The notes below the pieces were generated by a model. That model was not told the DNA's origin. It worked only from the letters and a program-made list of their open reading frames with translations, and searched no databases. A stretch of 64,000 nt of DNA. Source: Marinobacterium lutimaris. Its GTDB lineage: Bacteria > Pseudomonadota > Gammaproteobacteria > Pseudomonadales > Balneatricaceae. Of the stretch, positions 27,300 through 46,650 are shown piece after piece. Made by a program: the position numbers and the translations under genes. How positions within the stretch are numbered: the stretch's first letter is position 1; the number at the start of each line of letters is the position of its first letter. Where the stretch lies: positions 558,001 through 622,000 of the forward strand of contig NZ_FNVQ01000002.1 in the NCBI RefSeq assembly GCF_900108065.1, in the 5' to 3' direction.

Positions 27300-27376
27300 T
27301 CTCTAACCGCTGTTTTTATATTGTAAAGCAGGCTATCAATAAATTTGTCTTTTTGACAAAGCCCATTAATAATTAT

Positions 27377-28249: not shown

Positions 28250-28255
28250 ATTATA

Positions 28256-29125: not shown

Positions 29126-29205
29126 TTAAGAGATTTAATATTAAAATACACACTTATAGGATAATTGATATTAAACATATTATTAATTAGTGGAAACCGC
29201 AACGA

Positions 29206-30249
29206 TTATTTTACAGCTACGACAGTCAAAAACTCTTCACAGTTTTTTTTCCTAGGCCAGTGAAAAAAAAGTATAAACCTTAAGAAAATCTTATTAGAAA
29301 TACTATCGTATTCACATTTTTCTATTCTAGAACTTTGTAGAGCCATCCCTTTTCTCACATCAACTCTCGACCTAAAAATAGCCTTTTTAAAACAAGAGTT
29401 AATAATAACATTTTCAATTCCTTTTTTACTAAAAAGGACTAGATGCCTCGGTGCTTCTATACCTCTCCAGCTCTTACCAAAAAACTGCATCCCCTTACTT
29501 TCAATATTAGGGGTTTCAATGTATAAATAGCCTCCAGGTTTCAGACAGCTATATGCGAGATGCACAAAGTCCGAAGGATTATGCACATGCTCTATTACAT
29601 GATTAATGGTTATAACATCGAATATCTCTCCAGAATAAGCTATTTCTTCAAGACCTCCTTGAACTACATAAAAACCTCGTTCTTTGGCAACGGCAAGGGC
29701 TTTAGGATCTGGCTCAACCCCCTTAACAATCCAACCCGCTTCGGACGCAATAGCAAGAAAATCTCCATTCCCACATCCGACGTCCAATAGCCTTTGCCCG
29801 GTTTTTGGCTTTTTAAGATAACGATAGCGAGCATTTGCCGATCTTCGAAATTTTGGATAACAGAGAAGTAACCATGCTCCAAGGCGAATAGAGGGCTTAC
29901 GCGCAGTTCCGTGATGATAGTTATAATATCCGTTTGCAAGCATACGAAGTATTTTCCGTCCAAAGCTCAACTTATCAAAGTGCGTCTGCTGCTCAGATAG
30001 AATTTCATGCGTGTAATATTCACCATAAGCCTTATGAATACTGGCTTTGTCTGGGCGCGGGTTTAGGTAACCACTTTTACAGCTATTGCATTGATATAAT
30101 TTCCACGATCCAGGCGCGACAAAAAAAGTATTATCTACAAGATCATTGAATAACAATGTACTTTTTTTATTTCCACAGACAGGGCAACATTTAACATATT
30201 CCAAATTTTCTTCTGGCCAGGATTTAATAGACACGTCAGCTTTATTCAT
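29206..30249 (-). CDS. SAM-dependent methyltransferase with N-terminal zinc-finger-like domain
   Basis: A 347-residue protein. The N-terminus has two CxxC pairs (CCPVCGNK and YQCNSCKSGYLNPRP, residues ~20-65), probably a zinc site. The class I methyltransferase domain begins at QRLLDVGCGNGDFLAIASEA (~150), continues with VKGVEPDPKALAVAKERGFY, and has FDVITINHVIEHVHNP as motif 4. KPGGYLYIETPNIESKGMQF is the conserved later strand. The same architecture is seen in sugar C- or O-methyltransferases of surface-glycan loci, so it may decorate the operon B repeat. It is AT-rich and sits between the flippase and the glycosyltransferases. Confidence 0.78.
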   Translation of the reverse strand: MNKADVSIKSWPEENLEYVKCCPVCGNKKSTLLFNDLVDNTFFVAPGSWKLYQCNSCKSGYLNPRPDKASIHKAYGEYYTHEILSEQQTHFDKLSFGRKILRMLANGYYNYHHGTARKPSIRLGAWLLLCYPKFRRSANARYRYLKKPKTGQRLLDVGCGNGDFLAIASEAGWIVKGVEPDPKALAVAKERGFYVVQGGLEEIAYSGEIFDVITINHVIEHVHNPSDFVHLAYSCLKPGGYLYIETPNIESKGMQFFGKSWRGIEAPRHLVLFSKKGIENVIINSCFKKAIFRSRVDVRKGMALQSSRIEKCEYDSISNKIFLRFILFFHWPRKKNCEEFLTVVAVK

Positions 30250-30271
30250 AAGATTATTTTATATAAGAAAT

Positions 30272-31723
30272 TCAGAAAAACCATTTTCTTTTAAAAACTT
30301 GTTCTAAGAACCTCAACAACTCTTCTGGAATATTCTTAGATACCCAATATATATAAACAAAAAACAAAGCAGACACCACACCTACCACAAGCCAAAATGT
30401 GTAGTTTAAAATCACCAAACACATAGAAAAAAACATTAGCATTACAGGTAGAGCCAAGACCTTAACTGATGATTTTAACATGTTTGCATTAAACAAGAGA
30501 ATTATAGTATCTGCAAATGCCCTCGTAGAAAATGCTATAGCCGCGCCAAGTATCCCAATATATTCCAACCCAAAATATAATAGCAGGAAATAAGGAACCA
30601 CTTCTGCCAAATGACATTTAGCGACTATATCCGGTTTACCAGAAGCCTGAAGTAAAGCATGAGGTACCATCGCGATTGCATTAGTCCAAAACCCCAGTAA
30701 AAGTATTTGTCCAATAAAAGTAGATTTGCTGGCAAAGTTTTCTCCAACCCAAAGCTCAAAAAACCATTCCAGAGACAATATACCTAACAAAAATAAAGGA
30801 GTAATAATAATAGCCAACGATCGTAGTGCTTTATCTGTCAGAAGTCTGCCGTGTTCGCCACTCCCGCTACTAGCAAGACGTGGGAACATAGCTGAAGAAA
30901 GAGCAACCGGAATAACAGTTGTCCTTTCCGCCAATTGGAAAGGGACTGTGTAATAAGTTACATACTTTGCACCTAGCAGTGCACCAATTACGAACCTGTC
31001 AAGAATAACCATCATAGGTCCGATTACAGACGATACTGTTACCCACCCTCCGAACTGAAAGAGCTTCCCTGATAGCTCTTTTGATACTTTAACACCTTGT
31101 CGTTTTAGTAAGTGTGAGTAACAACGCTGAAAAAGCATTGCAGCAACGAAAACACGTGTAATAATCGTTACAGGGAGCAACCATTTAAGGTCAGGGCCAT
31201 GGAGCACTGCTACAGCGAGAGGAATAATCTGAAGAAGGGCTGTCCCGCATACAGAGATTACATTCAATTCCAGAAACTTAGATAGTCCTTGTAATGTACC
31301 AGAAAATACCCCCGACATCGTTGCAATTGGCACCGCGAGAGCAAGCCAATACACAGAATTTACAATCTCAGGTTTAAGTACATCATCTACTGATAATTGC
31401 CTGCCAAAGAAAAACAATGCAACTGGCCACATAATAGCGGCACCTAAGACTCCAAAAATGCTATTTATTGTCAGGGCGGTCCAAAACGTTTCGGATCGTT
31501 CACCTCTTTTATTGCTCGATAACATCGCAATCCGCTGAGCCGTAGCGCGCCCTAAACCCAAATCGAAAAGGCCAAAGTAACCCAGTAACAACCATGCAAT
31601 TGCCAAAATACCATAGCGAGATTCACCAATAACACTGATATATATTGGTATCGTAATTAGAGATACTGCTATTGGAATTATTGAGCCAACCAGGTTATAT
31701 AAAGTATTTTTACGGATACTCAT
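30272..31723 (-). CDS. wzx: Wzx-type polysaccharide flippase (operon B)
   Basis: A 483-residue MOP-superfamily membrane protein with about 12-14 predicted helices. It would move the undecaprenyl-linked repeat across the inner membrane. FGLFDLGLGRATAQRIAML (~55) and FQFGGWVTVSSVIGPMMVIL (~225), then DRFVIGALLGAKYVTYYTVP, are the landmark segments. The operon A flippase (42180-43448) has closely matching segments, so the two are paralogues of one subfamily. Within the AT-rich core. Confidence 0.88.
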   Translation of the reverse strand: MSIRKNTLYNLVGSIIPIAVSLITIPIYISVIGESRYGILAIAWLLLGYFGLFDLGLGRATAQRIAMLSSNKRGERSETFWTALTINSIFGVLGAAIMWPVALFFFGRQLSVDDVLKPEIVNSVYWLALAVPIATMSGVFSGTLQGLSKFLELNVISVCGTALLQIIPLAVAVLHGPDLKWLLPVTIITRVFVAAMLFQRCYSHLLKRQGVKVSKELSGKLFQFGGWVTVSSVIGPMMVILDRFVIGALLGAKYVTYYTVPFQLAERTTVIPVALSSAMFPRLASSGSGEHGRLLTDKALRSLAIIITPLFLLGILSLEWFFELWVGENFASKSTFIGQILLLGFWTNAIAMVPHALLQASGKPDIVAKCHLAEVVPYFLLLYFGLEYIGILGAAIAFSTRAFADTIILLFNANMLKSSVKVLALPVMLMFFSMCLVILNYTFWLVVGVVSALFFVYIYWVSKNIPEELLRFLEQVFKRKWFF

Positions 31724-31840
31724 ATTATTCAGTTAAAATTAGTAAATATTACTTACCGAGCATCGAGTGGCTGGTTAGCTATAATTGAATAGAAAAATTT
31801 TTCAGTTATTCGATACAACCCAATTCACAGATAAGGCAGA

Positions 31841-33238
31841 TTAGATTCTGATTTTAATGCGGTCGTTCACTCGTCCTAATATTTCTTTAAGCGCCAACCT
31901 TGGTTCTTTATCCCCATGCACCAGCCGCACCTCCTTCGACCCATGTTTGATTCCCTTCACAAAATTAACCAGCCCCCGCTGATCGGCATGTGCAGAATAA
32001 CCACCGATGGTTTCGACCCTCGCACGGATGGTATAGCGCTCACCATCGAGTTCAACGTAGCCGTTCTTTGGTCCATAGCTTTGAATATCCCGTCCGGGCG
32101 TACCCTCAGCCTGATAACCCACAAACAGCACATCATGGCGCTCATCGCTCAGCATCGCTTTCAGGTAGTTGATGATCCGGCCCGCATTGCACATACCGCT
32201 GCCGGCGATAACGATGCCCGGGCGGCCCGAGTTCGCCAGGTGATGCACCATTTTCAGGTGTTCATCGTGGCTATCGACGGTCAGCAGAGTATCAAATGCC
32301 AATGGCTTGCGGCCCTGTTTCAACCGGGCGTGGGCCTCTTCATCCCAGAACGGCTGTAACTCCCGATAGGCATCGGTGAACTTTGATGCCAAGGGCGAGT
32401 CCAGTATCACGGGTAGATCGCCGTCGAGTATATCTTCCATCTCATAGAGCAGCTCCTGGGTACGGCCTATGCTGAAGGCTGGGATCAAGACCGTACCGCC
32501 ATTTTCCAGTCCGCGGTCAATAGCCGCCTTGAGGCGGTATTTACGAGTTGCCCGGCTTTCGTGATTACGATCACCGTAGGTGCTTTCCAGCACCAGAACA
32601 TCAGCTCGATAAGGCGGTTTGGGCGCCGGGAGCAGCGGTGTATGGCTAGCGCCGAGGTCGCCGGAGAAAACGATTCTGGTGGAGGCTTGGTTAATCGCGG
32701 CGGGGGCGCCGGTCTTACGGCTCGGAGATCGCCGCTGGCAGTCTACTTCGACATAGGCGGAACCGAGTATATGTCCCGCGCGCTGTAGCCTGATTTGTAC
32801 CTTTCGCTCATTAGAATCAAGCAGCGTAAACCACTCTTTGTATGGCAACGCTACGATGCGCGACTCGACCTCGCCCAGGTAACGCTCAACCTGGGTGCTA
32901 TCGCGACTTATCCCCAGCCTGAAGGCATCTTCCAGTACCAGAGGCAGCAGCTTGGCCGAGGGTTGGGAGCAGATGATCGGCCCCTTGAAGCCCGCGGCCA
33001 GCAACCAGGGGATGCGCCCTACATGATCAATATGAACGTGGGTGACGATCAGCGCCATCACACTGCTTATATCAAAGTCGATCGCCTGACGGTTGGCGCT
33101 GTTGCCGTTACCTGTTTCCGCCCCCTGGAACAGCCCGCAGTCGATCAACAGGCTGTGGTTATCATCGATGTGCAGTTGATGACAGGAACCGGTCACACCA
33201 TCCCGGGCGCCGTAATGCTGAATCTCTTTATATGGCAT
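31841..33238 (-). CDS. MBL-fold RNase-like protein with beta-CASP domain
   Basis: A 465-residue metallo-beta-lactamase/beta-CASP protein of the RNA-processing class. Motif 1 is LLIDCGLFQG, motif 2 VTHVHIDHVGRIPWL, motif 3 the His of GHILGSAYVEV and motif 4 VFSGDLGASH. Beta-CASP motifs follow: LESTYGDRNHE, IVIAGSGMCNAGRIINYL and GGYSAHADQRGLV, with LVHGDKEPR near the C-terminus. All metal ligands appear intact, so an active zinc nuclease, or a non-nuclease hydrolase, is likely. It is the first gene of operon B, ~50 nt after the second ops element and 117 bp before wzx. Its normal base composition contrasts with the AT-rich genes that follow. The target is unknown. Confidence 0.85.
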   Translation of the reverse strand: MPYKEIQHYGARDGVTGSCHQLHIDDNHSLLIDCGLFQGAETGNGNSANRQAIDFDISSVMALIVTHVHIDHVGRIPWLLAAGFKGPIICSQPSAKLLPLVLEDAFRLGISRDSTQVERYLGEVESRIVALPYKEWFTLLDSNERKVQIRLQRAGHILGSAYVEVDCQRRSPSRKTGAPAAINQASTRIVFSGDLGASHTPLLPAPKPPYRADVLVLESTYGDRNHESRATRKYRLKAAIDRGLENGGTVLIPAFSIGRTQELLYEMEDILDGDLPVILDSPLASKFTDAYRELQPFWDEEAHARLKQGRKPLAFDTLLTVDSHDEHLKMVHHLANSGRPGIVIAGSGMCNAGRIINYLKAMLSDERHDVLFVGYQAEGTPGRDIQSYGPKNGYVELDGERYTIRARVETIGGYSAHADQRGLVNFVKGIKHGSKEVRLVHGDKEPRLALKEILGRVNDRIKIRI

Positions 33239-33253: not shown

Positions 33254-33289
33254 GCCGCTCCTTTAGATCACTCTAACGGAGTGAGCGGC
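33254..33289 (-). promoter_or_regulatory. Hairpin immediately downstream of the second ops element
   Basis: gccgct (33254-33259) pairs with agcggc (33284-33289), enclosing a second stem of cactc (33269-33273) and gagtg (33279-33283). Transcribed on the minus strand, the structure follows ops within a few bases and precedes the beta-CASP start. Its placement suggests a role in the leader, but no function is proven. Confidence 0.45.
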
Positions 33290-33300
33290 ACGCTACCGCC
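33289..33300 (-). promoter_or_regulatory. ops element (RfaH recruitment site) of operon B
   Basis: The minus strand reads GGCGGTAGCGTG, an exact match to the ops core that pauses RNA polymerase and recruits RfaH. It lies in a JUMPstart-like leader: caacctt just upstream, then gggtttgagg (cctcaaaccc at 33319-33328) and ttgtttgaa (33353-33361), all shared with the operon A leader. Confidence 0.88.
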
Positions 33301-33410
33301 CGAAGGTTGCCGGGTACACCTCAAACCCAGTGGCGCTTGTCATGATTGGTCGTTCAAACAACTGTTAGATGGTAAAGGAGTTTTAAGCAGGTAGCACCCG
33401 CCCTATCCGC

Positions 33411-33440
33411 TTTGTAGCGGAAAACAGGGGGCTGGATCAA
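33411..33440 (-). promoter_or_regulatory. Possible promoter of operon B
   Basis: On the minus strand, TTGATC (33440-33435), an 18-bp spacer and TACAAA (33416-33411). Four of six bases match at each box. It would start transcripts about 105 bp ahead of the ops element, in the 291-bp gap between the WcaJ-type gene and the beta-CASP gene. Confidence 0.4.
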
Positions 33441-33529
33441 TGGCAGGGTTATATTGGCGGGGATTATTGACGATGGATCGGCTAACGGCTCCCAGATCCT
33501 GTTGATCTGAGAGCCTGAACGTTCAAACG

Positions 33530-34912
33530 TCAGTAGGCGTTTCTGTTGATAAACCCCTTAAACAGGGTCGCCAGGATGATCTTCAGATCCAGCCAGAGTG
33601 ACCAGTTGTCGATATACCAAAGATCGTACTGGACACGCTTTTCCATCTTTTCCAGGGTATCGGTTTCACCACGGTACCCATTCACCTGGGCCCAGCCGGT
33701 GATCCCTGGCTTAACCTTATGACGGCGCATATAGGATTCGACGATATCCTTGTAGTACTCGTTATGCGCCAGGGCATGGGGGCGCGGCCCCACGATGGAC
33801 ATGCGCCCCTGGAGCACGTTGTAAAACTGCGGCAGTTCATCCAATGAAGTACGGCGCAGGAAAGCTCCAATGGGCGTTATACGACAGTCGCCCTTGGTCG
33901 CCTGGGTGACCTGGCCATCGCATTCCTGATGCACTTTCATCGAGCGGAATTTGTATACCTTGAAGCGGCACCCGTTAATACCGGTGCGATACTGTTTGAA
34001 CAGCACCGGTCCCGGTGATGTCAGTTTGATCGCCAAAGCTATCGCCAGACAAAGCGGCGAAATGAGCAACATGATCAGCCCTCCGATGAGCAGGTCCTCG
34101 CCCCGTTTGAAAACCCGGGCCGGACCACTCATCGGAGTAACACTTAAATCGATGGAGTACATCCCCGCAACCGAGCTGACGCGATGATTCAGCAAGGGGA
34201 TATCCCTCAGCTCTGGCATATAGCGGATCTCGATGGTTTCGTTACGCAGCGCATACATCAGCGCCTTGACCAGCGAGCCCATATCCAGAGGCACACTGAT
34301 CCAGACTTCATCGCACCCTGACTGGCGTATTTTCTCGACTGTTTTCTGTAAAAACGAATCGGTACACGCCTCACTGAGGCGGGTCACCCCTCCGATGGAA
34401 AAGCCTTCATTACTGTTCTTGCGCATTTTTCGCGCCACCTTCAGCAAGGTCGCCGGGGGGCCCAGCAGATAGACCTGGCGGCGATTTCGGCCGCTGGTAC
34501 GAAGGTGGCTTAACAGCAGGTGGGCAGATACACGTGCGGACCCTGCAAGCAGAAACGAGATGAGCAGGGAGAAACCAAGCCAGAGCCTGGAGTACTTTTG
34601 CGAGGTATCGGTAAAGTAGATCAGGGTGGCGATGATCAGCGAGACCAGTGCCCAGTTCTGTAGCAGGTTAACTAATAGACGCAGAAGGCTGGTGGTACGC
34701 CACTGACTGTATGACTCAGTCGTGTAGTTGACGAGGATGATACATAGCATCATGACGACCGTTGCCAACACGAAATGGTCGGTAACCGGCATCGTACCGA
34801 AACGCAGCAGATAGGCAGCGCTGCTGCCCAGTAACACCGCGAAACAGTCAGACAGCATCGCCAGTCGATGCATGGGGTACGCACGCACCTCTAACGCCGG
34901 AGCTTCAGACAT
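33530..34912 (-). CDS. wcaJ: Undecaprenyl-phosphate sugar phosphotransferase, WcaJ type
   Basis: A 460-residue initiating transferase with the long WcaJ/WbaP layout. Four N-terminal hydrophobic segments (~15-130) and a CoA-binding-like Rossmann domain (VYLLGPPATLLKVARKM) precede a C-terminal phosphoglycosyl transferase domain. The latter has FKVYKFRSMKVHQ, TSLDELPQFYNVLQGRMSI (catalytic Asp-Glu), VGPRPHALAHNEYY and KVKPGITGWAQVNGYRG. It transfers a hexose-1-phosphate, glucose in the WcaJ prototype, from UDP-sugar to undecaprenyl phosphate. It is the last gene of operon A, and the second initiating transferase in the window. Confidence 0.9.
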   Translation of the reverse strand: MSEAPALEVRAYPMHRLAMLSDCFAVLLGSSAAYLLRFGTMPVTDHFVLATVVMMLCIILVNYTTESYSQWRTTSLLRLLVNLLQNWALVSLIIATLIYFTDTSQKYSRLWLGFSLLISFLLAGSARVSAHLLLSHLRTSGRNRRQVYLLGPPATLLKVARKMRKNSNEGFSIGGVTRLSEACTDSFLQKTVEKIRQSGCDEVWISVPLDMGSLVKALMYALRNETIEIRYMPELRDIPLLNHRVSSVAGMYSIDLSVTPMSGPARVFKRGEDLLIGGLIMLLISPLCLAIALAIKLTSPGPVLFKQYRTGINGCRFKVYKFRSMKVHQECDGQVTQATKGDCRITPIGAFLRRTSLDELPQFYNVLQGRMSIVGPRPHALAHNEYYKDIVESYMRRHKVKPGITGWAQVNGYRGETDTLEKMEKRVQYDLWYIDNWSLWLDLKIILATLFKGFINRNAY

Positions 34913-35103
34913 TTATCAACGGCTCCCATAAGACGGCAACGCCTGAAATATATGAAGTCGGAGGACTAACAACTGCAGCCGACCTGTTTTTTCTATTTAT
35001 GAAAGCTGAATAGGGCACTTTAGATTAGAGCCTCTGGATTTAGGACGACCGGGCCTGATGACTCTTCCACCGGGCTCGACTCAGCTATTAGTGCCGGTAA
35101 ACC

Positions 35104-36000
35104 TCATTCAGGTTCCACATTGCCCTGTTTTAGTTCAGCCAACATTTTTTTCAAGTCATCCTTCCATTGAGGTATTTCCATCCCCAGAAGCGATGACAGT
35201 TTTGAACTGTCCAGAACCGACCAGGCGGGACGCTTTGCCGGGGTGGGATATTGCTCCGTCTTGATCGCCAGAACCTGCGGCTGACGCGTCAACAGGCCAA
35301 ATGCTTCCGCCTGCGCGAAGATCTCTTGAGCAAACTCGAACCAACTGCAGTCCGGCGCTCCGCTGAGGTGATATACGCCCCAGGGGAGTGGCTGATGCTC
35401 AAGGTGACGCTGAGCCAACAACCAAAGCACTTTTGCGATAGCGGCAGCCGAGGTCGGCCCACCCTGCTGATCCGCGACCACAGAGAGCGTGTCTCGCTCC
35501 TTTCCGACCCGGAGCATGGTTTTAACAAAGTTATTGCCCAGAGCCCCAAAAACCCAACTGGTTCGCAACACGATATAGCGGCTGCAACCTTCAGCCAGGG
35601 CCTGCTCCCCCGCCAGTTTACTGGCACCGTACACCCCGGTCGGGCCGGTTGTATCCGTTTCGCGGTATGGGCTGTCTGCATCACCGGCGAAGACATAGTC
35701 GGTGGATATATGTAAGACAGGGATACCCAGCTTTTCGGCTGCACAGGCCAGGTTTGCGACGCCATCCCGGTTCACTGCCCACGCCCGCTCAGCATCGGAT
35801 TCGGCCTTATCCACCGCGGTATAGGCCGCGGCATTAATAATCAAGCCCGGCTGGAGCTCTGCAACCTTTGCCTCCACAGCCTTCGCGTGGGTAATATCCA
35901 GACTCGCCGAATCCAACCCAATCACCTCGAACGCGTCTGGCGCAAGGCGCAATAGTTCTCGGCCTACCTGACCTCTGGCACCGGTAATCAAAACACGCAT
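35104..36000 (-). CDS. rfbD: dTDP-4-dehydrorhamnose reductase
   Basis: A 298-residue SDR that makes dTDP-L-rhamnose in the last step of the pathway. MRVLITGARGQVGRELLRL, INAAAYTAVDKAESDAERAW, LHISTDYVFAGDADSPYRET and TGVYGASKLAGEQAL give the classical order with Tyr-x3-Lys. The ATG at 36000 is preferred over 36009: AAGG is nine bases from it but adjacent to the other. Fourth and last of the rmlBACD set, 12 bp after rfbC. A 191-bp gap without a clear signal separates it from the WcaJ-type gene. Confidence 0.94.
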   Translation of the reverse strand: MRVLITGARGQVGRELLRLAPDAFEVIGLDSASLDITHAKAVEAKVAELQPGLIINAAAYTAVDKAESDAERAWAVNRDGVANLACAAEKLGIPVLHISTDYVFAGDADSPYRETDTTGPTGVYGASKLAGEQALAEGCSRYIVLRTSWVFGALGNNFVKTMLRVGKERDTLSVVADQQGGPTSAAAIAKVLWLLAQRHLEHQPLPWGVYHLSGAPDCSWFEFAQEIFAQAEAFGLLTRQPQVLAIKTEQYPTPAKRPAWSVLDSSKLSSLLGMEIPQWKDDLKKMLAELKQGNVEPE

Positions 36001-36012
36001 GGGGGCCATCCT

Positions 36013-36546
36013 TCAGTAAAGCTCTTTCAAGCCGGGATAGTGGCTATCCTTCTCCGACAGCTGAACGTCCGACAGCGGCCAGGCAATGTTCAACAGCGGG
36101 CAGTTCCAGGCGACTCCCCCTTCGTCACTGGGGTCGTAGTAGTCGGTACATTTGTAGACAAAATCCACCGTCTCGCTGAGAACGACGAAGCCATGGGCGT
36201 AACCTGGCGGCACCCAAAGCTGGCGGTGGTTGTCTTCACTCAGCTCAACACCCACATACTGCCCAAAGGTAGGCGAGTCTGGATTAATGTCTGCGGCCAC
36301 ATCATAGACCGCACCCCGGGTGACACTGACCAATTTCCCCTGAGGCTTGGTTTTCTGAAAATGCAGCCCACGCAATACCCCTTTACGGGAGCGGGAGTGG
36401 TTATCCTGCACAAAAGCCAGATCGATACCTGCTTCCTCTTTATAGCGCCGGGCACTGAAGGTCTCTTTGAAAAATCCCCGATGGTCACCAAAAACCTGGG
36501 GCTCTATGATTTTCACCCCGGCCAATGCGGTGTCTATCACTTTCAT
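36013..36546 (-). CDS. rfbC: dTDP-4-dehydrorhamnose 3,5-epimerase
   Basis: A 177-residue cupin-fold epimerase. [36 protein letters not shown] (catalytic His), [18 protein letters not shown] and [20 protein letters not shown] are all conserved, as is [18 protein letters not shown]. Length equals the family norm (~180). Its ATG overlaps the rfbA stop by four bases, so the rml genes are translationally coupled. Confidence 0.96.
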
Positions 36547-37421
36547 AGCGCTTTTTCCTCCTGCGCCAGCTTGAGCAGATACTGTCCGTATCCCGTTTTT
36601 GCGAGCTGCTGGCCCTGAGCCTGCATCCGTTCACGTGAGAGCCAGCCATTGCGGTAGGCGATCTCTTCAAGACAGGCAATCTTGAGGCCCTGGCGGTGCT
36701 CCACGGTCTGCACGAACATCGCTGCCTCAAGAAGGCTTTGGTGGGTTCCGGTATCCAGCCAGGCAAAGCCTCGGCCAAGCAGCTCCACGTTCAGCTCGCC
36801 TCGATCCAGATAAGCCTGGTTGATGCTGGTGATTTCCAGCTCTCCCCGGTGCGAGGGTTTCACCTGCTTGGCGATTTCAACCACCGCATTGTCATAGAAA
36901 TAAAGGCCTGTCACCGCGTAGTTGGACTTCGGCTTGGCTGGTTTCTCCTCGATGGAGATCGCCTTGCCGTTGGCATCAAAGTCGACCACACCGAAACGCT
37001 CGGGATCATTGACGAGGTAGCCAAATACAGTCGCCCCCGATGGACGGCTCGCAGCTGCCTGCAACTGGCGGCTAAAACTCTGCCCATAGAAGATATTGTC
37101 GCCGAGCACCAGGCAAACGCTGTCATCACCAATAAACTCTTCGCCGATGATAAACGCCTGCGCAAGCCCATCAGGCGAGGGCTGTTCGGCATAACTCAGC
37201 TCTACACCGTAATCGGAACCATCGCCAAGAAGCTTCTGAAAGTTAGGTAAATCTTCCGGGGTAGAGATCACCAGAATTTCACGAATGCCCGCCAACATTA
37301 AAACCGACAGCGGATAATAGATCATCGGCTTGTCATAGATCGGAAGCAGCTGTTTGGATACGCCCTTGGTAATTGGATACAAACGCGTGCCGGAGCCTCC
37401 GGCCAGAATAATACCCTTCAT
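36543..37421 (-). CDS. rfbA: Glucose-1-phosphate thymidylyltransferase
   Basis: A 292-residue nucleotidyltransferase that forms dTDP-glucose. [20 protein letters not shown] is the nucleotide-binding start, [20 protein letters not shown] follows, and [33 protein letters not shown] and [20 protein letters not shown] complete the signature. It overlaps rfbB upstream and rfbC downstream by four bases each, in the order rmlB-A-C-D. Confidence 0.97.
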
Positions 37422-38509
37422 CCCTTTTCCCCCAGTCGACCTAGCTGATATTCACCACTGAGCACCCGCTGCCACCATTCCGGATTATCCAGGTACCACT
37501 CCACGGTTTTGCGGATACCGCTCTCGAACGACTCCTGCGGTACCCAGCCCAACTCTCGCTGTATCTTGCCGGCATCGATTGCGTAACGTACATCATGCCC
37601 CGGACGGTCTTTTACAAAGGTAATGAGATCACGGTAGTGCGCTATCGGCTCATCTGAAGACCAGTCAGTAGATGCAAAAGTCCCCGGCGCGACCATTTCC
37701 TGCAGCAAATCGCAGATGGTTTCTACAACCTCAAGGTTACGTTTCTCGTTGTGGCCACCAATATTGTAGGTCTCACCAACCGCACCTTCTGTGGCTACCT
37801 TCACCAGAGCACGAGCGTGGTCCTCCACATAGAGCCAGTCGCGAATCTGATTGCCATCACCATACACCGGCAACGGCTTACCGGAGAGCGCATTGAGTAT
37901 CATGTGAGGTATCAGCTTCTCCGGGAAATGATAAGGCCCGTAGTTGTTGGAGCAGTTGGTTACCAGCGTGGGCAGGCCATAAGTACGTTGCCAAGCGCGC
38001 ACCAGGTGATCAGAACTTGCCTTGGAAGCAGAATATGGCGAACTCGGCTCGTAAGAGGTCGTCTCGGTGAACAGATCATCTGTACCTTCCAGATCACCGT
38101 AAACTTCATCGGTGGAAATGTGGTGGAAACGAAACCCTGCCTTTTCATCATTGCCCAGCCCGGACCAAAACCGCCGTGTTGCCTCCAGCAGTGTATAGGT
38201 ACCGACCACATTGGTCTCGATAAACGCTGCCGGACCGTCAATGGAACGATCCACATGGCTTTCAGCGGCCAGGTGCATCACATGGGTCGGTTTGAACTCG
38301 GCAAAAACACGATCCAGCCCTGCAGCATCGCAGATATCAACTTGATCGAACCGGTACCTGGAGGAATCGGTCACTCCGCTAAGAGACTCAAGGTTGCCTG
38401 CGTAGGTAAGTTTATCCAGGCAAGCTACCTGGCTGTCGGTATTTTCAATCAAGTGCCGCACAACGGCCGAGCCGATAAAACCTGCACCACCGGTTACTAA
38501 AATTCTCAT
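37418..38509 (-). CDS. rfbB: dTDP-glucose 4,6-dehydratase
   Basis: A 363-residue SDR that converts dTDP-glucose to the 4-keto-6-deoxy intermediate. [60 protein letters not shown] (Tyr-x3-Lys) and [20 protein letters not shown] are diagnostic. The open frame reaches 38620, but the ATG at 38509 begins exactly at the NAD motif and has TTTAGG upstream. First of the four rml genes, 16 bp after the glycosyltransferase gene. Confidence 0.96.
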
Positions 38510-38525
38510 AATGCCTAAACTGCCC

Positions 38526-39635
38526 TCAGTTTTCCGGATGCCAGGAAACCAGCAACTCTTCATACTCTGTAAGGATCTGTTGCCAAGTAAACCGCTCGAC
38601 AAAGCGTTTGCGACTGGCACTCTTCATCAGATTTTTCGTCTCGGTATCTGGCAACAGGCGCTCAAATAGCACGGCACACTCATCCTCATCTTTGAAATAG
38701 GCGGCGCCCTCTCCTGCAACCCAGCGATTGAAATGATTGTCCTGCGCAATGACCGCAGAGCCGGCACCCAGTGCCTCAACCAGCGATGGGTTTGTCCCCC
38801 CTACACGATGACCATGCAGATAGAACGCGGAATAAAACCGTAAAGCTCGAACCACTGCCGGTTCATAAATTGCCCCGGGGAAAATAACTTCGTCACTGGC
38901 CGCCGCCATGACGTCCCGATGATACGAGTTACCCTCTGGCCGAAAGTTACCAAGCACAACCAGTTTGTGCGCACGCGGCTTTCGGCTGAAAGCGCGTACC
39001 ATTTCCAGAAACGAGTTTTCCGGCTCCGGACGCGCAATGATCACAGAGAAACATTCCGGCTCGATCCCGAAGGTTTTTAACTGCTCGGAATCCCCTTCTA
39101 CGACCTCATCACCGCCGTAAGGAATCATAGTAATTTTGCGACCGCTCACTCGCGTTTCAAGATGCGCCTTGATTTTTGGATGGTCGGCGACCAAGTGATT
39201 GCCGATCCAGCACCCCGCACGCTCGTTTAGCCAGAACCAGGTTTTCGCGACCCAGCCCCACTTGTCCCGTTTCCATTCAATGCCATCCATATTGATGACA
39301 TTCACCTGCCCCTTTACCCGTTGCAAAAGGTTGAAAATGGCTGTGTTATAGCCCAGCGTAAGAAACAGGCCATCTCTTGAAAGCGCATGTCTGGTTGCTT
39401 TCCAATCAAAAATAATGGTGCCTGCTGCTCCGGAACGACTTACCGGAATATGGATACGGCGCACACCCTGCCAATAACTCTCAGACAGATTACCGTCACC
39501 TTCTTCCTGACAGTAAACCGTCACATCCCACCCCTTTTCGACTAGAAAAAGTGAGAGTTTTTCAGCAAATGACTCGAAGCCTCCATGCTGCGCAGGTACT
39601 CCACGAATACCTAGAATATTAAGCTTTAAATCCAT
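38526..39635 (-). CDS. DUF1972-type glycosyltransferase, probably a rhamnosyltransferase
   Basis: A 369-residue GT-B enzyme. [20 protein letters not shown] is the N-terminal signature of the DUF1972 family, which includes Cps2T-type beta-1,4-rhamnosyltransferases. The donor half has [20 protein letters not shown] (~195) and [20 protein letters not shown] (~280), the E-motif region. Placement directly before rmlBACD fits transfer of rhamnose, but specificity is inferred. The ATG at 39635 overlaps the previous gene's stop (TGATG). Confidence 0.8.
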
Positions 39636-40903
39636 CAATCTATTTTTCTCTTAAATAGAGTCGTAAAAAACCCAAACACGAAGAAAACTAAAATTGATGG
39701 TAATACGAGACAGAAACCCAGTATTCCAAACAATCTGCGGGCAAATGACATTGGCGACTCGTCCACATAGCCAATTAATTTACTGGCAAAACGAGCCCAG
39801 TAAAAATCCGGGGCCAATTCAGACATACAACGGCGCATATTTGCAACCTGCTCTGGAGACTGACTCAACCTCAGAAGCGTTGCAGACAATTCCGACTGGA
39901 GAGCAACAACCCCTGCTTTCGACTGATCTAGCCGGCGTCCCCACTCATCGTCCCTGTTTTGGACAATAGGCAGCCCCAGGGTAAGACAGTCAAAATTTCG
40001 AGTCCTGGAAGCGTAGTCGTTTTCATACCCCTCCCCTCCCCAGACAAGGGAGATATCGAAGCCACTCCAAAATTCGAAGCGCTGGGAAAAATCCACCCAA
40101 GGTAGAAAAAGAATATTTTCTCTATATTCAGGGTCGACGAAGGCGAGCAACTCCTGCCGTCGCTTTTCATCGACACCAAAGAACACAATTTTAAGTCGCT
40201 TATTTCTGCCAATCGCCTTTGATACTTCAGCGAGCACCGCGCCCAGATCGAACCAGCCATAGGTACCCCCTAACCAGCCGATCAAAAAATCGTCATCGGT
40301 GATCAGGGTGCCTCCCAGTTCCGCCAATCGCTTCCGGCCACTCTCTTTTGACCAACCCAGATGTTCGCTACACCCAAAAGGAATCACCTTTATGCGGGAA
40401 AACTCATGGGTCAGGAAAAACGGGGCGGCTATCCCCCGGAACAGGTCCAGCTGGCGTTTGTTGGCGACGATAACAAGGTTGAATACTGATGCACCCAACA
40501 GGCTACGAGCCACGTTAAAGTATGCTTTGATCAACAGTTTGAGCGATAAAGGGCCGCCAGTATTCCGAATCACTTCATCGAGTTCTATCCAGTGAGGTAC
40601 GTAACCATCAAGAACGACACGCTTGCCCAGAAGCCCCGACAGCATAGCCAGCAATAGCACTATTGGCCCGCCACCGTGAAGGACAATAACATCGGCTTTC
40701 AGAAGGCTTTTAATCAGTAGCCAAAGGTTCGCAACCGGTACAAAACCCACGTTCTCCGGGACTCCCAGGCTATCTCCTGAGCGACCGCACAACGAAACGT
40801 CATGGTTCAATTTCACCAATTCACGCGCAAGGGCGGCATAACGCATCTCGGGCCCCCTCAGGGCGGCACCATAGTCACCTTTGTATAACAGCAAAAACCT
40901 CAT
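39635..40903 (-). CDS. Glycosyltransferase (GT-B fold) with C-terminal membrane anchor
   Basis: A 422-residue protein. MRFLLLYKGDYGAALRGPEM is the N-terminal strand; DFLIGWLGGTYGWFDLGAVL (~235) and FDISLVWGGEGYENDYASRT (~310) belong to the donor-binding half, with TLGLPIVQNRDDEWGRRL after them. A hydrophobic segment near the C-terminus (LFGILGFCLVLPSILVFFVF) suggests anchoring to the inner membrane. Donor and acceptor are unknown. It lies in operon A between wzy and the DUF1972 gene. Confidence 0.72.
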   Translation of the reverse strand: MRFLLLYKGDYGAALRGPEMRYAALARELVKLNHDVSLCGRSGDSLGVPENVGFVPVANLWLLIKSLLKADVIVLHGGGPIVLLLAMLSGLLGKRVVLDGYVPHWIELDEVIRNTGGPLSLKLLIKAYFNVARSLLGASVFNLVIVANKRQLDLFRGIAAPFFLTHEFSRIKVIPFGCSEHLGWSKESGRKRLAELGGTLITDDDFLIGWLGGTYGWFDLGAVLAEVSKAIGRNKRLKIVFFGVDEKRRQELLAFVDPEYRENILFLPWVDFSQRFEFWSGFDISLVWGGEGYENDYASRTRNFDCLTLGLPIVQNRDDEWGRRLDQSKAGVVALQSELSATLLRLSQSPEQVANMRRCMSELAPDFYWARFASKLIGYVDESPMSFARRLFGILGFCLVLPSILVFFVFGFFTTLFKRKID

Positions 40904-40971
40904 ACAGCCCTCTTAGTCCAAAAACCCGGTACTACACGAACCACTCCCAGCTTTGACTGAGCCATTAAATA

Positions 40972-42183
40972 TCAGTTCTCGGCATACGAGGCTTCATCGG
41001 GGACGCTACGCCTAAGGAAAAACACGCAATAAAAAGCAAAGGCTCCGATCGCAACAAACGATATAAAATAAACATATATATAAACATAGAAAAATATTAG
41101 AGTATATAAATATAAAATTGAGTATAGAAGTGTAAATCGGCGATCCATTTTTGCCTTCCGGTACACGGCCCCAAGCAGTACCGCCAAAGAAAAGCTACCC
41201 AAGAAAACGCCAAAAGCGCCAAAATCAACATAGAAATTAGACACAAATGTAGACGTCAGCTCCGCATAAAAATCAATACCCAACATTTGATTTTTATAAG
41301 TACCGAAATCCATTTGATGCCCAGGCAATAGGGAGTAAAAGGCATAAAACGTATACCGCCCCCCTTCGAGCCCATCCAGACCCGCCTCCACCAACCAATC
41401 AAAAACCATAAACCCATAGGTCAAGGTTAGATAGAGAGGATAAACAGCATATTTTATCGCAGAAGGCTCTCCGATAAGCTGCTCATCGATCATCCCCATA
41501 TAATCGACACCAAAAGCGATCTCTCTATAAAATTTCATCAGTACAAATGCAGATATAAAAACACACCCAGCAATTGTCCATTTAAGGCTTATCATTCGAT
41601 CACGATTAAGCACAAAAAATATGCACAGTATCGCAAGCATCAACATAAAATCAGATCGATTTCCGGTGAGCGATAGTAAAAAGAAACCAAACAAACCGAC
41701 CAGAAAGACTTGAATTCTGACAAGACCTTGATCAAACGATGCAGTCACAATGAGCAGGCTAGAAACTATGCCAAGAGAAATCGCCAACAGATGCACATAG
41801 CCATTAACTTGCATGCTAAATCTTAATGACTCAACATCTTTCGACAGAATCGGAATACCACCAAGCAGATAAAATTCATAGAACAAGCAAGCACAGGCTA
41901 GAAAAAACCATGAAAAAAGCCCCCACAATAGTATAGGCCTATGTACCAATCTTACCTGACTCACCGGAACCGATTTGGTCCGAAAAAAACAGTTTTTCAG
42001 CAACCAAAGAAGATAGCAGCTTACTAAACCCACAAAAAAAGCCAGTACAGCAATCAAAATCAAGCTTTCAGTTTTCTCAGAAATATTACCAACAGTGTAA
42101 ACAAACTCTATTTTTGTAAGCAGATATGGAAATACAAACCCCATAAAGAAGGCAAATCCTGGCCTTGAATAAAAATAATTCAT
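40972..42183 (-). CDS. wzy: Wzy-type O-antigen/capsule polymerase
   Basis: A 403-residue protein with about 10-12 hydrophobic segments and little other sequence. The segment LLGGIPILSKDVESLRFSMQ (~110) and LTGNRSDFMLMLAI (~170) match the periplasmic-loop and RSD-type motifs of oligosaccharide-repeat polymerases; a large loop follows around residue 270. Wzy joins lipid-linked repeats in the periplasm. It is the only polymerase candidate in the window, so operon B has none of its own. Its ATG overlaps the flippase stop (ATGA). AT content is higher than in the flanking sugar genes. Confidence 0.82.
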   Translation of the reverse strand: MNYFYSRPGFAFFMGFVFPYLLTKIEFVYTVGNISEKTESLILIAVLAFFVGLVSCYLLWLLKNCFFRTKSVPVSQVRLVHRPILLWGLFSWFFLACACLFYEFYLLGGIPILSKDVESLRFSMQVNGYVHLLAISLGIVSSLLIVTASFDQGLVRIQVFLVGLFGFFLLSLTGNRSDFMLMLAILCIFFVLNRDRMISLKWTIAGCVFISAFVLMKFYREIAFGVDYMGMIDEQLIGEPSAIKYAVYPLYLTLTYGFMVFDWLVEAGLDGLEGGRYTFYAFYSLLPGHQMDFGTYKNQMLGIDFYAELTSTFVSNFYVDFGAFGVFLGSFSLAVLLGAVYRKAKMDRRFTLLYSILYLYTLIFFYVYIYVYFISFVAIGAFAFYCVFFLRRSVPDEASYAEN

Positions 42184-43448
42184 TTCCAGAACTCCAGGCG
42201 TGAATATTTAAGAAACTCCAACAACAACCAATCTATCAAGCATCTCAGGGCCCAAACGACAGCCACCCCTTCTAATCCGAAACCTTTTTCAATCACAATA
42301 AATATGGCGACCAGATAGAATGGCACTTCCGCAAGATGAAGCAACGCTGTCACCTTAGATTTCCCCGCCGCCTGCAGGATATTATAGGGGACACTTCCCA
42401 TGGAGTTCACTAGAACGCCACAAAGAATAATCAGGAATATAACATAGCTTTTTTCCTGATATTCCTGTCCCACCCAAAGATTCAAAAAATACTCACCAAA
42501 AAAATAAACACCAACAATTACTGGAAGAACAAGAAGAAAATTAGCGATATACGAGTATTTCTGCAGCCTTATAATTTCATTTTTATTTTTATCATGAATC
42601 AGCGCACTGATTCTTGGAAACATAACCGCGCCAATGGAAGCAGGTACGAGAAGTAATTTTGTCGCCATTTCATAGGGTACGGTATAAAACGAAACAACCG
42701 CCATGGATATCATCGAACCGATGATAAAACGATCGAAATACACCATCACCGGACTGATAGTGTTGGATAGCGTCATCCACCCGCCAAAACCTAGCAAGCG
42801 ATAAATATTCTGTTTGGATACCGAAAGATAGGAAAAAGAGACGAGCTTTCTTACGCCTGACCAGTAGTACAAACAAAGCAATACCCTGGCGAATACCAAC
42901 GAGACAACGGCATAGAAAAAATTGCCGAAGAGATGAAAAAACAATAGAGGCCCCAGAAACATCCATATACCCAGAGGGATCCTCCCAATTGAAACCAGCT
43001 TGAACTTCTCAAACCCTTCAAGCACGCCACGTAATCCCGTTGCCCAGACGGTAAAAGCGACTGCCAGCCCGGTCACTTGCAGCGCAGCCTGAGCAGTATC
43101 GACCAGATCCGCGGCTATGTTAAATACGTTGCGGCTCAGATAACTCGCGCTGAGCAGAACCAGACAGCCAGCGACAAAGCCGGCCACTAGCACAACAGCC
43201 ATACCCGTTGAGTACAGCTGGTCGACCTCATTTTCATCGCCAGCAGCCCGTGCCCGGGCGATGCTTTGGGTCAGCGCACGTCCAATACCAAGATCGAACA
43301 GGGTGAAATACCCAATAAACATCCAGAGGATAGTGAGAAAACCAAAAAGTTCGTTGCCAAACTGGGTCACCATTAAGGGAATAGCATAGAGACCCGCCAA
43401 CAATGGCAGAAAGTTTCCGGCAAAAACCCAGGCTAACTTACTCTTCAC
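42180..43448 (-). CDS. wzx: Wzx-type polysaccharide flippase (operon A)
   Basis: A 422-residue MOP-superfamily flippase with about 12 helices. FTLFDLGIGRALTQSIARAR (~50) and GFGGWMTLSNTISPVMVYFD (~220), then RFIIGSMISMAVVSFYTVPY, align well with the operon B flippase, so the two are paralogues. It starts with GTG. A 227-bp gap without a gene separates it from ugd upstream; the gap holds only an 8-bp partial ops-like core (43567-43574). Confidence 0.88.
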   Translation of the reverse strand: MKSKLAWVFAGNFLPLLAGLYAIPLMVTQFGNELFGFLTILWMFIGYFTLFDLGIGRALTQSIARARAAGDENEVDQLYSTGMAVVLVAGFVAGCLVLLSASYLSRNVFNIAADLVDTAQAALQVTGLAVAFTVWATGLRGVLEGFEKFKLVSIGRIPLGIWMFLGPLLFFHLFGNFFYAVVSLVFARVLLCLYYWSGVRKLVSFSYLSVSKQNIYRLLGFGGWMTLSNTISPVMVYFDRFIIGSMISMAVVSFYTVPYEMATKLLLVPASIGAVMFPRISALIHDKNKNEIIRLQKYSYIANFLLVLPVIVGVYFFGEYFLNLWVGQEYQEKSYVIFLIILCGVLVNSMGSVPYNILQAAGKSKVTALLHLAEVPFYLVAIFIVIEKGFGLEGVAVVWALRCLIDWLLLEFLKYSRLEFWK

Positions 43449-43675
43449 CCAACGCCCTTAGTGGAATACTGGTTCAAACTGGACAAGAAAACTCATTCAA
43501 AGTGGCAGAAACTCAGGAGTATCAAGGTTTTAGCGCTGGGTCACCAAGGTTTCTCCCGCAATAAAAACGCTACCAGTGCCGTAATGAGCTTCTTCTGTTC
43601 ATATACAGAAAGGCTGGAGCAGTTAATTCCCATTAAGCTCCTACCCTTCTGAAATAAACCTTATTGATTAAATAC

Positions 43676-44842
43676 TTAATCGTTACCAAAAAGATCTCGC
43701 GTATAGACCTTATCGATCACATCACTAAGATCATCGGCACGCCGGTTCGCGATAATCACGTCACTCACCTGCTTGAACTCTTCCAGGTTATCGATCACGC
43801 GGGAATGAAAGAACTCCGCCTGTTCAAGAACAGGCTCGTACACCACCACCTCAATCCCTTTTGCCTTGATACGCTTCATCACGCCCTGAATAGCAGATGC
43901 ACGGAAGTTATCGGAGCCGGACTTCATCACCAGGCGATAAATGCCAACGACCTTTGGCCCCTTGGCAAGAACGCTATTTGCAATAAAGTCTTTGCGGGTG
44001 GAGTTCGCATCGACGACAGCGCGGATCATGTTGCTGGGTACATCCGCGTAGTTTGCCAACAGCTGCTTGGTATCCTTCGGCAGGCAATAGCCGCCGTAAC
44101 CAAAACTCGGGTTGTTGTAGTGGCTACCGATACGCGGATCAAGGGAAACACCATCGATGATCTGACGGGTATCCAGACCGTGAGTGGCTGCGTAGGAATC
44201 CAGCTCATTGAAGTAGGCGACACGCATCGCCAGGTAGGTGTTCGCAAAGAGCTTGATCGCTTCCGCTTCCGTGCTCTCGGTGAAAAGCACAGGAATATTT
44301 TCCTTGATAGCGCCCTGCTTGAGCAGCTCTGCGAATTTTTCCGCTCGGGCGCTCCGCTCACCTACGACAATGCGTGACGGGTGCAGATTGTCATACAGTG
44401 CCTTGCCTTCCCGCAGAAACTCCGGCGAGAAAATCAAGTTGCTCGCACCGAACCGCTCGCAGGCTTCTTTGGTGTAACCGACCGGCACTGTAGATTTAAT
44501 AACCATTACCGCTTCAGGGTTGATTGCCATCACATCCCGTATCACAGACTCTACACTGCCGGTGTTGAAATAATTCGTTTCGGGGTCGTAATCGGTTGGC
44601 GTTGCGATAACCACATAATCAGCTCCACTGAAAGCGGCAGCTTTATCCGTAGTCGCCAGCAAATCCAGTTCGCGCTCAGCCAGGAAGGTTTCGATCTCCC
44701 TGTCCTCAATCGGTGATTTGCGCGCATTGATCAGGTCAACCTTCTCCTGCACGATATCCAGAGCTACGACCTCGTTGTGCTGTGCCAACAACACCGCATT
44801 TGAAAGCCCGACGTAGCCAGTTCCCGCTACTGCAATTTTCAC
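43676..44842 (-). CDS. ugd: UDP-glucose 6-dehydrogenase
   Basis: A 388-residue enzyme that oxidises UDP-glucose to UDP-glucuronate with two NAD+. [20 protein letters not shown] is the Rossmann motif, [20 protein letters not shown] carries the catalytic Glu, [20 protein letters not shown] the Lys and Asn, and [20 protein letters not shown] the catalytic Cys and Asp. Length and sequence closely match E. coli Ugd (388). The GTG start overlaps the epimerase stop (GTGA), so its product feeds the UDP-GlcA 4-epimerase encoded just upstream. All catalytic residues are intact, unlike the gene at 55524. Confidence 0.97.
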
Positions 44843-45810
44843 TGAGACGCGCTCCTGTACTCTTTGTACCAGTTTACAAATTGATTCATGCCGTCCTCGA
44901 TGTTCATCGACGGCTTATAGCCCACCGCCTCTTCAAGACGCCTGGTATCGGCAAAAGTTCTTGGGACATCGCCCGGTTGCATCGGCAGGTATATTTTCTC
45001 GGCCTCAATACCGCAAGCCGACTCAACGGCCCTTATAAACCTCGCAAGCTCTATGGGCTGGTTGTTACCGATATTAAACAGTGCGTAGGGGGTTATTCCT
45101 TGAGGCCGGACATCCTGAATACGTATTACGCCCTCTACAATGTCATCAATGAAGGTAAAGTCCCTCAGCATGCGGCCTTCGTTAAATACATTGATGGGCT
45201 CCCCCCTCATGATCGCTTCGGCAAAGAGCCAGGGCGCCATATCGGGCCTTCCTGCGGGACCGTATACGGTAAAGAAACGCAGCCCCGTGGTCGGGATGCC
45301 ATAAAGTGACGAGTAGGAGTGAGCCATTAACTCGTTCGCCTTCTTCGTCGCGGCATAGAGTGACACCGGGTTATCAACCCAATCGTCCTCGCTGAAAGGG
45401 ACCTTCTCATTGGCGCCGTATACCGAGCTCGAGGAGGCATAGACCAGGTGATCAACCGGATGATGACGACAGCCTTCCAGGATGGTCATCATTCCGACCA
45501 GGTTACTGTCTACATAGTCAAAGGGAGCTTTCAACGAGTGCCGGACGCCAGCCTGGGCGGCCAGATGTATGACACGATCAAATTTTTCGGCAGCAAATAG
45601 ACCGGCTATACCGGCACGGTCCGCCAGATCCATCTTCACGAATCGGAACTGATCGTATGGCTTCAGCCAACTCAAACGGTAAGCTTTCAATCCAGGATCG
45701 TAATAGCTGTTCAGGCTGTCCAGCCCAACAACCTCATGTCCCGCCTCAAGCAGGCGTTTAGCCGTATAACTGCCAATAAACCCGGCAGCCCCCGTGACAA
45801 GATACTTCAA
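44839..45810 (-). CDS. UDP-glucuronate 4-epimerase
   Basis: About 323 residues. An extended SDR that interconverts UDP-GlcA and UDP-Gal[21 protein letters not shown] is the NAD motif, [18 protein letters not shown] the Ser region, [17 protein letters not shown] the Tyr-x3-Lys, and [20 protein letters not shown] the GlcA-epimerase signature. Both possible starts are TTG: 45810 gives the canonical [13 protein letters not shown] with AAGGG nine bases upstream, while 45819 adds three residues. First gene of operon A, ~115 nt downstream of the ops element. Confidence 0.92.
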
Positions 45811-45925
45811 CCTGATCAACCCTTACCTTGTAAACGCCACAGCGCGGCGTTTACTTAAACAACCCGGCCTTTTCAGCCAGAAATCAAAACGCTGTAGTCT
45901 AAACCTCATTGATACCGAGATTTGC

Positions 45926-45937
45926 CACGCTACCGCC
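45926..45937 (-). promoter_or_regulatory. ops element (RfaH recruitment site) of operon A
   Basis: The minus strand reads GGCGGTAGCGTG, identical to the site at 33289-33300. It is preceded by caacctttg, by gggtttgagg (cctcaaaccc at 45961-45970) and by ttgtttgaa (46013-46021), the same blocks in the same order as in the operon B leader. The 348-bp gap holds this leader and the divergent rfaH promoter region; no gene is seen in it. Confidence 0.9.
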
Positions 45938-46103
45938 CAAAGGTTGAAAAATCGGGCGTTCCTCAAACCCTAAAACTCAGCTTTGCATCCGCCCCCGGAA
46001 ACCACACGGGACCTTCAAACAAATGAGTATCATTTTCATATCAACAACTTGGCTATGCATTCCATGCATTCAACCTGGTTACCGGGATTCTACAGAACTT
46101 TAG

Positions 46104-46127
46104 CCATGCTCCCCAGCACCTTATAAT
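46104..46127 (+). promoter_or_regulatory. Possible rfaH promoter
   Basis: A perfect TATAAT (46122-46127) lies 31 bp before the rfaH ATG; the -35 region about 17 bp upstream is poor (TTTAGC, three of six). The promoter call rests mainly on the -10 box. Confidence 0.4.
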
Positions 46128-46158
46128 AGACTTTTATGCATTAGAGATTGGATAGTTG

Positions 46159-46650
46159 ATGTCGGGCTATAACTGGTATGTCGTGCAGGCCAAGCCGGGC
46201 CAGACGGCTCGCGCTCAGCAAGAACTGGAAAATCAGGGTTTTGATCTGTTCGTGCCCTGGATCAGCATCGAAAAGATCAAGCGTGGTAAGCGGGTCACCG
46301 AAGAGGAGCCCCTCTTCCCCGGATATCTTTTTATCTGGCTCTCGGAAATGGACAGCAACTGGCGCCCGATCCGTTCCACACGTGGAGTAGCCCGCGTGAT
46401 CACCTTCGGAAACAAGCCCGCAGTTGTTCCGGGGGCTGTGATCGAGGCGCTGCGTAGTAAGCTGCGCTCTGACAAGGAGCCGGAGCAGGTTCTGAAATCT
46501 CAACAGAAGATCGAAATCGCCGAAGGTCCGTTCAAGGGGCTGAATGCCGTCTTTGTACAATACGATGGTGAACAAAGGGCGTTTGTTTTGCTTGAGCTAC
46601 TTGGCAAGTGGCAGCGACTGTCGATGGATCTGGGATCGATTCGGGGATAA
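46159..46650 (+). CDS. rfaH: Transcription antitermination factor RfaH
   Basis: A 163-residue NusG paralogue that binds RNA polymerase paused at ops sites, suppresses termination and recruits ribosomes on long surface-glycan operons. YNWYVVQAKPGQTARAQQEL is the NGN start, LFVPWISIEKIKRGKRVTEE and PLFPGYLFIWLSEM follow, and the linker and C-terminal domain (KIEIAEGPFKGLNAVFVQYD) complete it. Length equals E. coli RfaH (162). NusG itself is longer and sits with ribosomal genes, so RfaH is the better call. The frame opens with TTG at 46156, one codon before the ATG chosen. Encoded divergently from operon A, with two exact ops elements in the window. Confidence 0.92.
   Translation: MSGYNWYVVQAKPGQTARAQQELENQGFDLFVPWISIEKIKRGKRVTEEEPLFPGYLFIWLSEMDSNWRPIRSTRGVARVITFGNKPAVVPGAVIEALRSKLRSDKEPEQVLKSQQKIEIAEGPFKGLNAVFVQYDGEQRAFVLLELLGKWQRLSMDLGSIRG

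Follow-up and report, generated by a model that had tools for sequence, protein, structure and literature searches.

What should we make of a locus where the gene of an antiterminator stands beside the operons that its product would serve? In the textbook case, rfaH is found far from its targets. The stretch of DNA considered here, 64,000 nucleotides of Marinobacterium lutimaris (NZ_FNVQ01000002.1, positions 558,001 to 622,000 of the forward strand, assembly GCF_900108065.1) and hereafter the window, carries rfaH next to the first of two exact ops elements that head operons mostly devoted to polysaccharide synthesis. An initial annotation of this DNA had seen there a compact module, suggestive of coordinated RfaH control. 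The observation itself is confirmed and the reading built on it is partly supported; the control of the operons by RfaH is a prediction from sequence. What we have is a real, conserved and linked variant of a known system, of interest for a predicted third target and for retained autoinhibition residues. It is very probably a case of ordinary ops-dependent RfaH antitermination whose layout is linked and divergent, a view that extends known RfaH biology to this lineage.

The regulator and its sites

The initial annotation had placed an rfaH gene beside the first leader, transcribed away from it, and this is borne out. The gene product passes the RfaH equivalog model TIGR01955 (163.5 bits against a cut-off of 144.5), fails the nusG model (68.8 against 135.7) and reaches neither of the NCBIfam cut-offs for LoaP and UpxY (56.9 and 83.7 bits against 125 and 100, respectively); its best match in the PDB is E. 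coli RfaH (E 1e-30), with 60 identities over 148 aligned residues of the stretch used. The start of rfaH is 222 bp from the first ops element, ops1, and its transcription runs away from that element. A search of the whole genome (5.57 Mb in 21 contigs) for rfaH or nusG paralogues, which the initial annotation had suggested, found two genes of the NusG family, rfaH itself and nusG. In E. coli RfaH, Arg16 and Arg73 are required for recruitment. Both are retained in the protein of the window, together with K10, E48, I93, F130, R138 and L142, so that all four interdomain residues of autoinhibition (E48, I93, F130 and R138) are present. As a separate observation on the recruitment positions, residues 16 and 73 are often jointly hydrophobic (V/L, L/L or L/I) in RfaHs of other Gammaproteobacteria, some of them encoded near an identical ops.

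The 12-mer GGCGGTAGCGTG occurs in the window as two exact copies, both on the minus strand and each within the leader that precedes a long operon, just as reported at the outset (Table 1); none of 100 dinucleotide shuffles contained a match. Three longer words had been proposed as common to the two leaders. When these are aligned with others, making 24 leaders, the cores of two words stand: TTGAGG, from gggtttgagg, is exact in 17 leaders and starts 22-36 nt 5′ of an extended ops 13-mer, GGGCGGTAGCGTG, while AACCT, from caacctt, is exact in 18 and starts 7 nt 5′ of it, with CCCGA between the two in many leaders. The third word, ttgtttgaa, was rejected as a conserved element, being found in 2 of the 24, the window's own pair, even if one mismatch is allowed. 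From these 24 leaders, which include the three of the genome, we built a leader model, R1 (the scoring covered 150 of 1624 first-look candidates). Against the JUMPstart RNA of Rfam (RF01707) the first leader scores 13.7 bits and the second 18.3, both under the gathering score of 35, and both align chiefly through their ops end. We can therefore describe them, as far as the alignment goes, as JUMPstart-like leaders with a distinct upstream half: the ops core is at the same end as in RF01707, the upstream half differs, and, compared with E. coli leaders, the approximately 30 nt that precede ops follow another consensus.

Predicted targets in the genome

Copies of ops scattered at unrelated operons, an outcome that the initial annotation had proposed to look for, are not what the genome contains. 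The 13-mer is present three times (its control, zero), each time preceding sugar-nucleotide or polysaccharide genes or, for the second element of the window, ops2, a nuclease gene heading such an operon. R1 lists the same three sites at E <= 0.01, all of them members of its training set. The exact 12-mer has four copies, two in the window, one at locus L091 and one at locus L096, the last overlapping a 366-residue open reading frame (ORF) on the opposite strand. The site at L091 is the third leader; it is on the same contig, with ops2 137 kb away and rfaH about 150 kb away, and it precedes a rhamnose operon with rmlB-, rmlD-, rmlA- and rmlC-like genes, an epimerase and an RgpF-type glycosyltransferase. 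Slightly 5′ of this leader is an ABC-transporter ATPase gene, and a similar leader was noticed in another genome of the sample (G003, locus L181). Since the 13-mer count and the R1 list agree, the predicted regulon consists of two adjacent operons and a distant one, and the idea of a self-contained module is not supported. With this third leader, action of RfaH on a remote target is to be expected as well. Nine matches to the shorter 11-mer GGCGGTAGYGT outside the window and L091 were discarded as further targets: eight overlap ORFs of at least 126 residues and the ninth (L093) abuts one of 97; among the nine there is no full 13-mer and a single exact 12-mer (L096), and R1 lists none.

Linkage in related bacteria

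We may ask how far this arrangement is shared. The family sample holds 116 genomes, 43 with an RfaH above the cut-off and 73 without; the 13-mer is present in 32 of the former and 4 of the latter (Fisher p 5e-15), as against 6 and 7 for the reversed motif (p 0.55). A locus was counted as linked if an exact ops lay no further than 3 kb from rfaH, with three scrambled motifs as controls. By this measure 16 of the 45 loci read in the family, the window not counted (42 above the cut-off and three weaker), are linked, as are 30 of the 78 loci, besides the window's own, from a class sample of 369 genomes (79 with an RfaH match), where 29 of the 78 had flanks of about 1.5 kb or less; together this makes 46 of 123, and each scrambled motif gives 0/45 and 1/78. 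Linkage is thus fairly common in related bacteria, and the rarity implied by the initial annotation does not hold. Polysaccharide genes among the neighbours of rfaH in clusters CL2-CL8, and RfaHs inside Shewanella exopolysaccharide operons, had already been noted in PMC7593976, whose portion on rfaH neighbourhoods does not map ops sites beside rfaH outside enterobacteria. The class-wide count (30/78) offers a simple route to predicting RfaH targets in uncultured bacteria.

The layout varies with lineage. Within the family, eight of the linked loci are divergent (-174 to -292) and eight have ops downstream on the same strand (+536 to +620); among those of the class, 26 are downstream and four upstream on the same strand, and none is divergent. 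The conservation of linkage in close relatives, which had been put forward as a check, is found in the genus: eight genomes were searched and seven bear RfaH; in six of the seven a divergent ops lies no more than 300 bp from rfaH, and in five of the seven another ops follows after a further 4.6-15.4 kb. Among named relatives, the nearest to be found is a metagenome-assembled genome of Marinobacterium (L003). On a quick tree of RfaH proteins, with 55 weak inner branches out of 123, the divergent layout is held by 9 of 110 assessable loci (the window counted), all in one 19-row clade of support 100, and requires 4 changes (shuffles: mean 8.7, lowest 7). The divergent orientation and a leader failing the Rfam JUMPstart threshold are best seen as traits of this lineage. 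The open-access literature, consulted as listings and the beginnings of abstracts, gave no paper on a divergent rfaH-ops layout.

Two observations on other layouts may be recorded. Genus g6 (G035-G041), possibly with a large RfaH regulon, carries 4-14 exact 13-mers per genome, where no other genome of the family sample has more than 6; in six of its seven genomes an ops comes after rfaH in the same orientation. At L105, L152, L158 and L165 rfaH is preceded on its own strand by an exact ops, at -98 to -536, and may be autoregulated there.

Weighing the explanations

Following established RfaH biology, from which pausing, recruitment, fold switching and the effect on expression are borrowed, RNA polymerase would start 5′ of each leader and pause at the exact ops; RfaH made from the neighbouring gene would bind the exposed non-template strand, displace NusG and stay bound, so that Rho and pauses would then fail to halt transcription of the 12-kb and 15-kb operons, of lowered G+C content. 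The same RfaH would serve the third ops-led operon some 150 kb away. What we see in favour of this account is the identity of the gene, the exact ops and its conservation, the statistical tie between ops and RfaH, and the residues. The likeness with E. coli RfaH and its ops/JUMPstart operons extends to the protein, an identical 12-bp ops, the leaders of long polysaccharide operons and an unlinked target; the differences are that rfaH is here divergent and close to ops1, and that two positions of the protein are replaced.

These replacements belong to several points that weigh against antitermination of the ordinary kind. The side chains of E. coli RfaH that directly touch ops in the crystal structure are K10, H20, R23 and R73, according to the structural part of PMC5995543, and two of these are altered in the window, with Glu in place of H20 and Asn in place of R23 (at position 20, the 123 relatives have N in 80 cases, H in 20, E in 19 and Q in 4). 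An AlphaFold2 model of the full-length protein, made with two sequences only, is of low confidence (predicted local distance difference test score, pLDDT, 57) and draws a weakly beta C-terminal domain with no alpha hairpin of the autoinhibited kind, too poor a model to decide the fold but not one in favour of autoinhibition; the isolated domain is also modelled as a beta fold (pLDDT 76), which is expected whether or not RfaH switches. A simple scan near either leader gave no sigma-70-type promoter. The 11-mer has 12 matches in the genome and its reversed control 15, hence no enrichment, and the exact 13-mer is missing from 11 of the 43 RfaH-bearing family genomes, which may use variants.

Could RfaH rather be a cis-acting, non-switching (monomorphic) paralogue of NusG, like UpxY or the linked RfaHs of PMC13015549 (a 2026 preprint), loaded where it is made, with ops a mere pause site? 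Linkage itself would fit, as would the beta-type domain of the low-confidence model; long operons lie beside most predicted monomorphic RfaHs according to that preprint, which proposes that metamorphic RfaHs are mostly encoded at a distance from their operons while monomorphic ones adjoin theirs. In the class, moreover, E48 is retained in 18 of 30 linked and 39 of 48 unlinked RfaHs. Against this, E48, F130 and R138 are kept in the RfaH of the window and in all 16 linked RfaHs of the family (position 93 being I or V), although, because E48 and R138 are also well conserved in predicted beta forms (PMC13015549), such residues by themselves do not prove switching. The gene is divergent from operon 1 rather than within it, so that loading during its own synthesis would miss the target transcript, and service to the third operon would call for an RfaH that selects its targets from afar, which fits the retained autoinhibition residues. 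The regulators UpxY, TaA and the Shewanella CL7 RfaHs, encoded in their target operons as described in part of PMC7593976, share with ours a position beside a served operon; here the gene is divergent and outside the operon, the ops is exact and a distant ops-led operon exists as well. We consider a cis-acting protein highly unlikely. By its residues this lineage would be linked yet metamorphic, which would fit poorly with the proposal of the preprint, and the trend of E48 in the wider class, with lower retention in linked RfaHs, runs partly the opposite way to the family. The lineage seems to unite linkage and exact ops with an ops-led operon far away and with intact autoinhibition residues, which makes it a natural test of the published picture.

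Another alternative would make linkage incidental, rfaH being a passenger in mosaic polysaccharide islands and its position devoid of regulatory meaning, with ops still in use. The linked state requires 27 changes on the tree for 43 linked loci out of 110, still below the values of the shuffles (mean 34.3, lowest 29), and in G002, G027, G031 and G032 rfaH and ops are far apart or on separate contigs. The contrast with the scrambled controls argues the other way, as does the tight spacing within each layout (-174 to -292 when divergent, +536 to +548 in genus g6), and we hold this to be a tenable but rather improbable account. It may also be that the upstream half of the leaders (TTGAGG..CCCGA..AACCT) forms an RNA hairpin or pseudoknot acting with ops. 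Two complementary stretches are indeed paired in 89% of cells of the alignment (helix 1, 97.8%), as against 30-60% in slid controls. There is no covariation, however: the score was reached by 91 of 500 shuffles and exceeded by one slid control (0.165 against 0.145), a single cell has a two-sided change, invariant letters are uninformative, and RNAalifold gave a different, weak helix. A shared structure with two crossing helices was for this reason rejected as unproven, and a role for leader RNA of this kind appears unlikely. Ordinary ops-dependent antitermination thus keeps our preference.

A nuclease at the head of operon 2

The initial annotation had described two tandem polysaccharide operons. 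Both are tandem and mostly made of polysaccharide genes, but operon 2 begins with a beta-CASP ribonuclease of the metallo-beta-lactamase superfamily, about 50 bp after ops2. This protein of 465 residues matches in the PDB TTHA0252 (1e-66), FttA (3.6e-36) and CPSF73 (4e-35), with IntS11 also related; it retains the HxHxDH motif (HVHIDH at residue 67), aligns with the FttA chain only from residue 245 of that chain onward, and is below the cut-off of the aCPSF1 model (243.9 against 580.2). PADLOC defence families gave no match to it or to rfaH. In archaea, FttA is bridged to the polymerase by Spt5 (PMC11616081, in the part concerned), and for this reason we keep a bold reading, of very slight probability, in which RfaH, of the Spt5/NusG family, and the CPSF73/FttA-like nuclease would operate together as a module in some Gammaproteobacteria: travelling with the RfaH-modified polymerase or checking it, the nuclease would cut the leader or clear failed transcripts.

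A nuclease match (E <= 1e-30) is present in 66 of the 116 family genomes. Among 28 copies of at least 54% identity in RfaH-bearing genomes (six distant copies were left out), 10, from 10 family genomes, have a match that starts 25-104 bp after an exact 13-mer, seven more are within 1.6 kb, and 11 have no exact 13-mer within 1.6 kb upstream. In RfaH-less genomes, 8 of 10 proteins encoded upstream of the nuclease, hand-picked rather than random from the 38 upstream genes listed for 20 genomes, are sugar-nucleotide enzymes. The locus of V. cholerae for O-antigen and capsule combines likewise a JUMPstart site with rjg, annotated as a predicted beta-lactamase-fold RNA-processing exonuclease, which marks the edge of the locus, whereas our nuclease is the first gene after ops2 (PMC1847822, for the portion on this locus). 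Found beside sugar genes without RfaH, and with rjg of V. cholerae as a similarly annotated gene, the nuclease is, as judged from its neighbours, a general member of polysaccharide loci; partnership with RfaH, as the principal explanation, was set aside in view of the RfaH-less genomes and of the 11 copies with no near 13-mer.

The operons and their surroundings

Table 1. Coordinates of the features discussed (positions in the window unless stated otherwise)
Feature	Position	Strand	Basis
rfaH, NusG-family antiterminator, 163 residues, ATG start	46159..46650	+	TIGR01955, PF02357, best PDB match
ops element 1, GGCGGTAGCGTG	45926..45937	-	exact match
Extended leader 1, GGGTTTGAGG...GCCC...CAACCTTTGGGCGGTAGCGTG	45926..45970	-	aligned with 23 other leaders; R1 48.5 bits (training member)
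Terminator-like stem-loop (T-rich tail), 3′ of ops1 and before the first gene of operon 1	45863..45881	-	about 0.5 such sites per shuffle
Operon 1 (putative), 11 genes, polysaccharide	33530..45819	-	strand and spacing
Stem-loop of 12 bp after operon 1, no T run	33487..33515	-	101-nt stretch, z -3.18
ops element 2, GGCGGTAGCGTG	33289..33300	-	exact match
Extended leader 2, GGGTTTGAGG...CCCG...CAACCTTCGGGCGGTAGCGTG	33289..33328	-	leader alignment; R1 45.9 bits (training member)
Operon 2 (putative), 13 genes, mostly polysaccharide	18270..33238	-	strand and spacing
beta-CASP metallo-beta-lactamase ribonuclease	31841..33238	-	PF10996, PF07521, PF00753
wzz, convergent with operon 2 at its end	17089-18183		
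Third ops leader	L091 around 10008; genome C10:454396	-	exact 13-mer, R1

Operon 1 encodes an NAD-dependent epimerase, a UDP-glucose-dehydrogenase-like protein, a Wzx-like flippase, a Wzy-like polymerase, an unassigned protein, a glycosyltransferase-like protein, rmlB-, rmlA-, rmlC- and rmlD-like products and a WcaJ-type initiating transferase. The terminator-like stem-loop preceding its first gene could be a leader terminator overridden by RfaH, and a chance origin is also possible. Operon 2 continues after the nuclease with a Wzx-like flippase, a methyltransferase, glycosyltransferases, a nucleotide-sugar dehydrogenase, epimerases and a small initiating sugar transferase, the last gene specifying a WbpM/PseB-like dehydratase. 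A scan between the two operons found no terminator-like site, and the strong stem-loop located there, having no T run, is no clear intrinsic terminator, so that read-through from operon 1 into operon 2 is possible. Both operons are long and of lowered G+C content, as are known RfaH targets: operon 1 reaches a minimum of 45% and operon 2 one of 35%, whereas the window's outer parts have 57-60%. Inside operon 2, positions 26000-32000 have a G+C content of 35-43%, a sign of acquired DNA.

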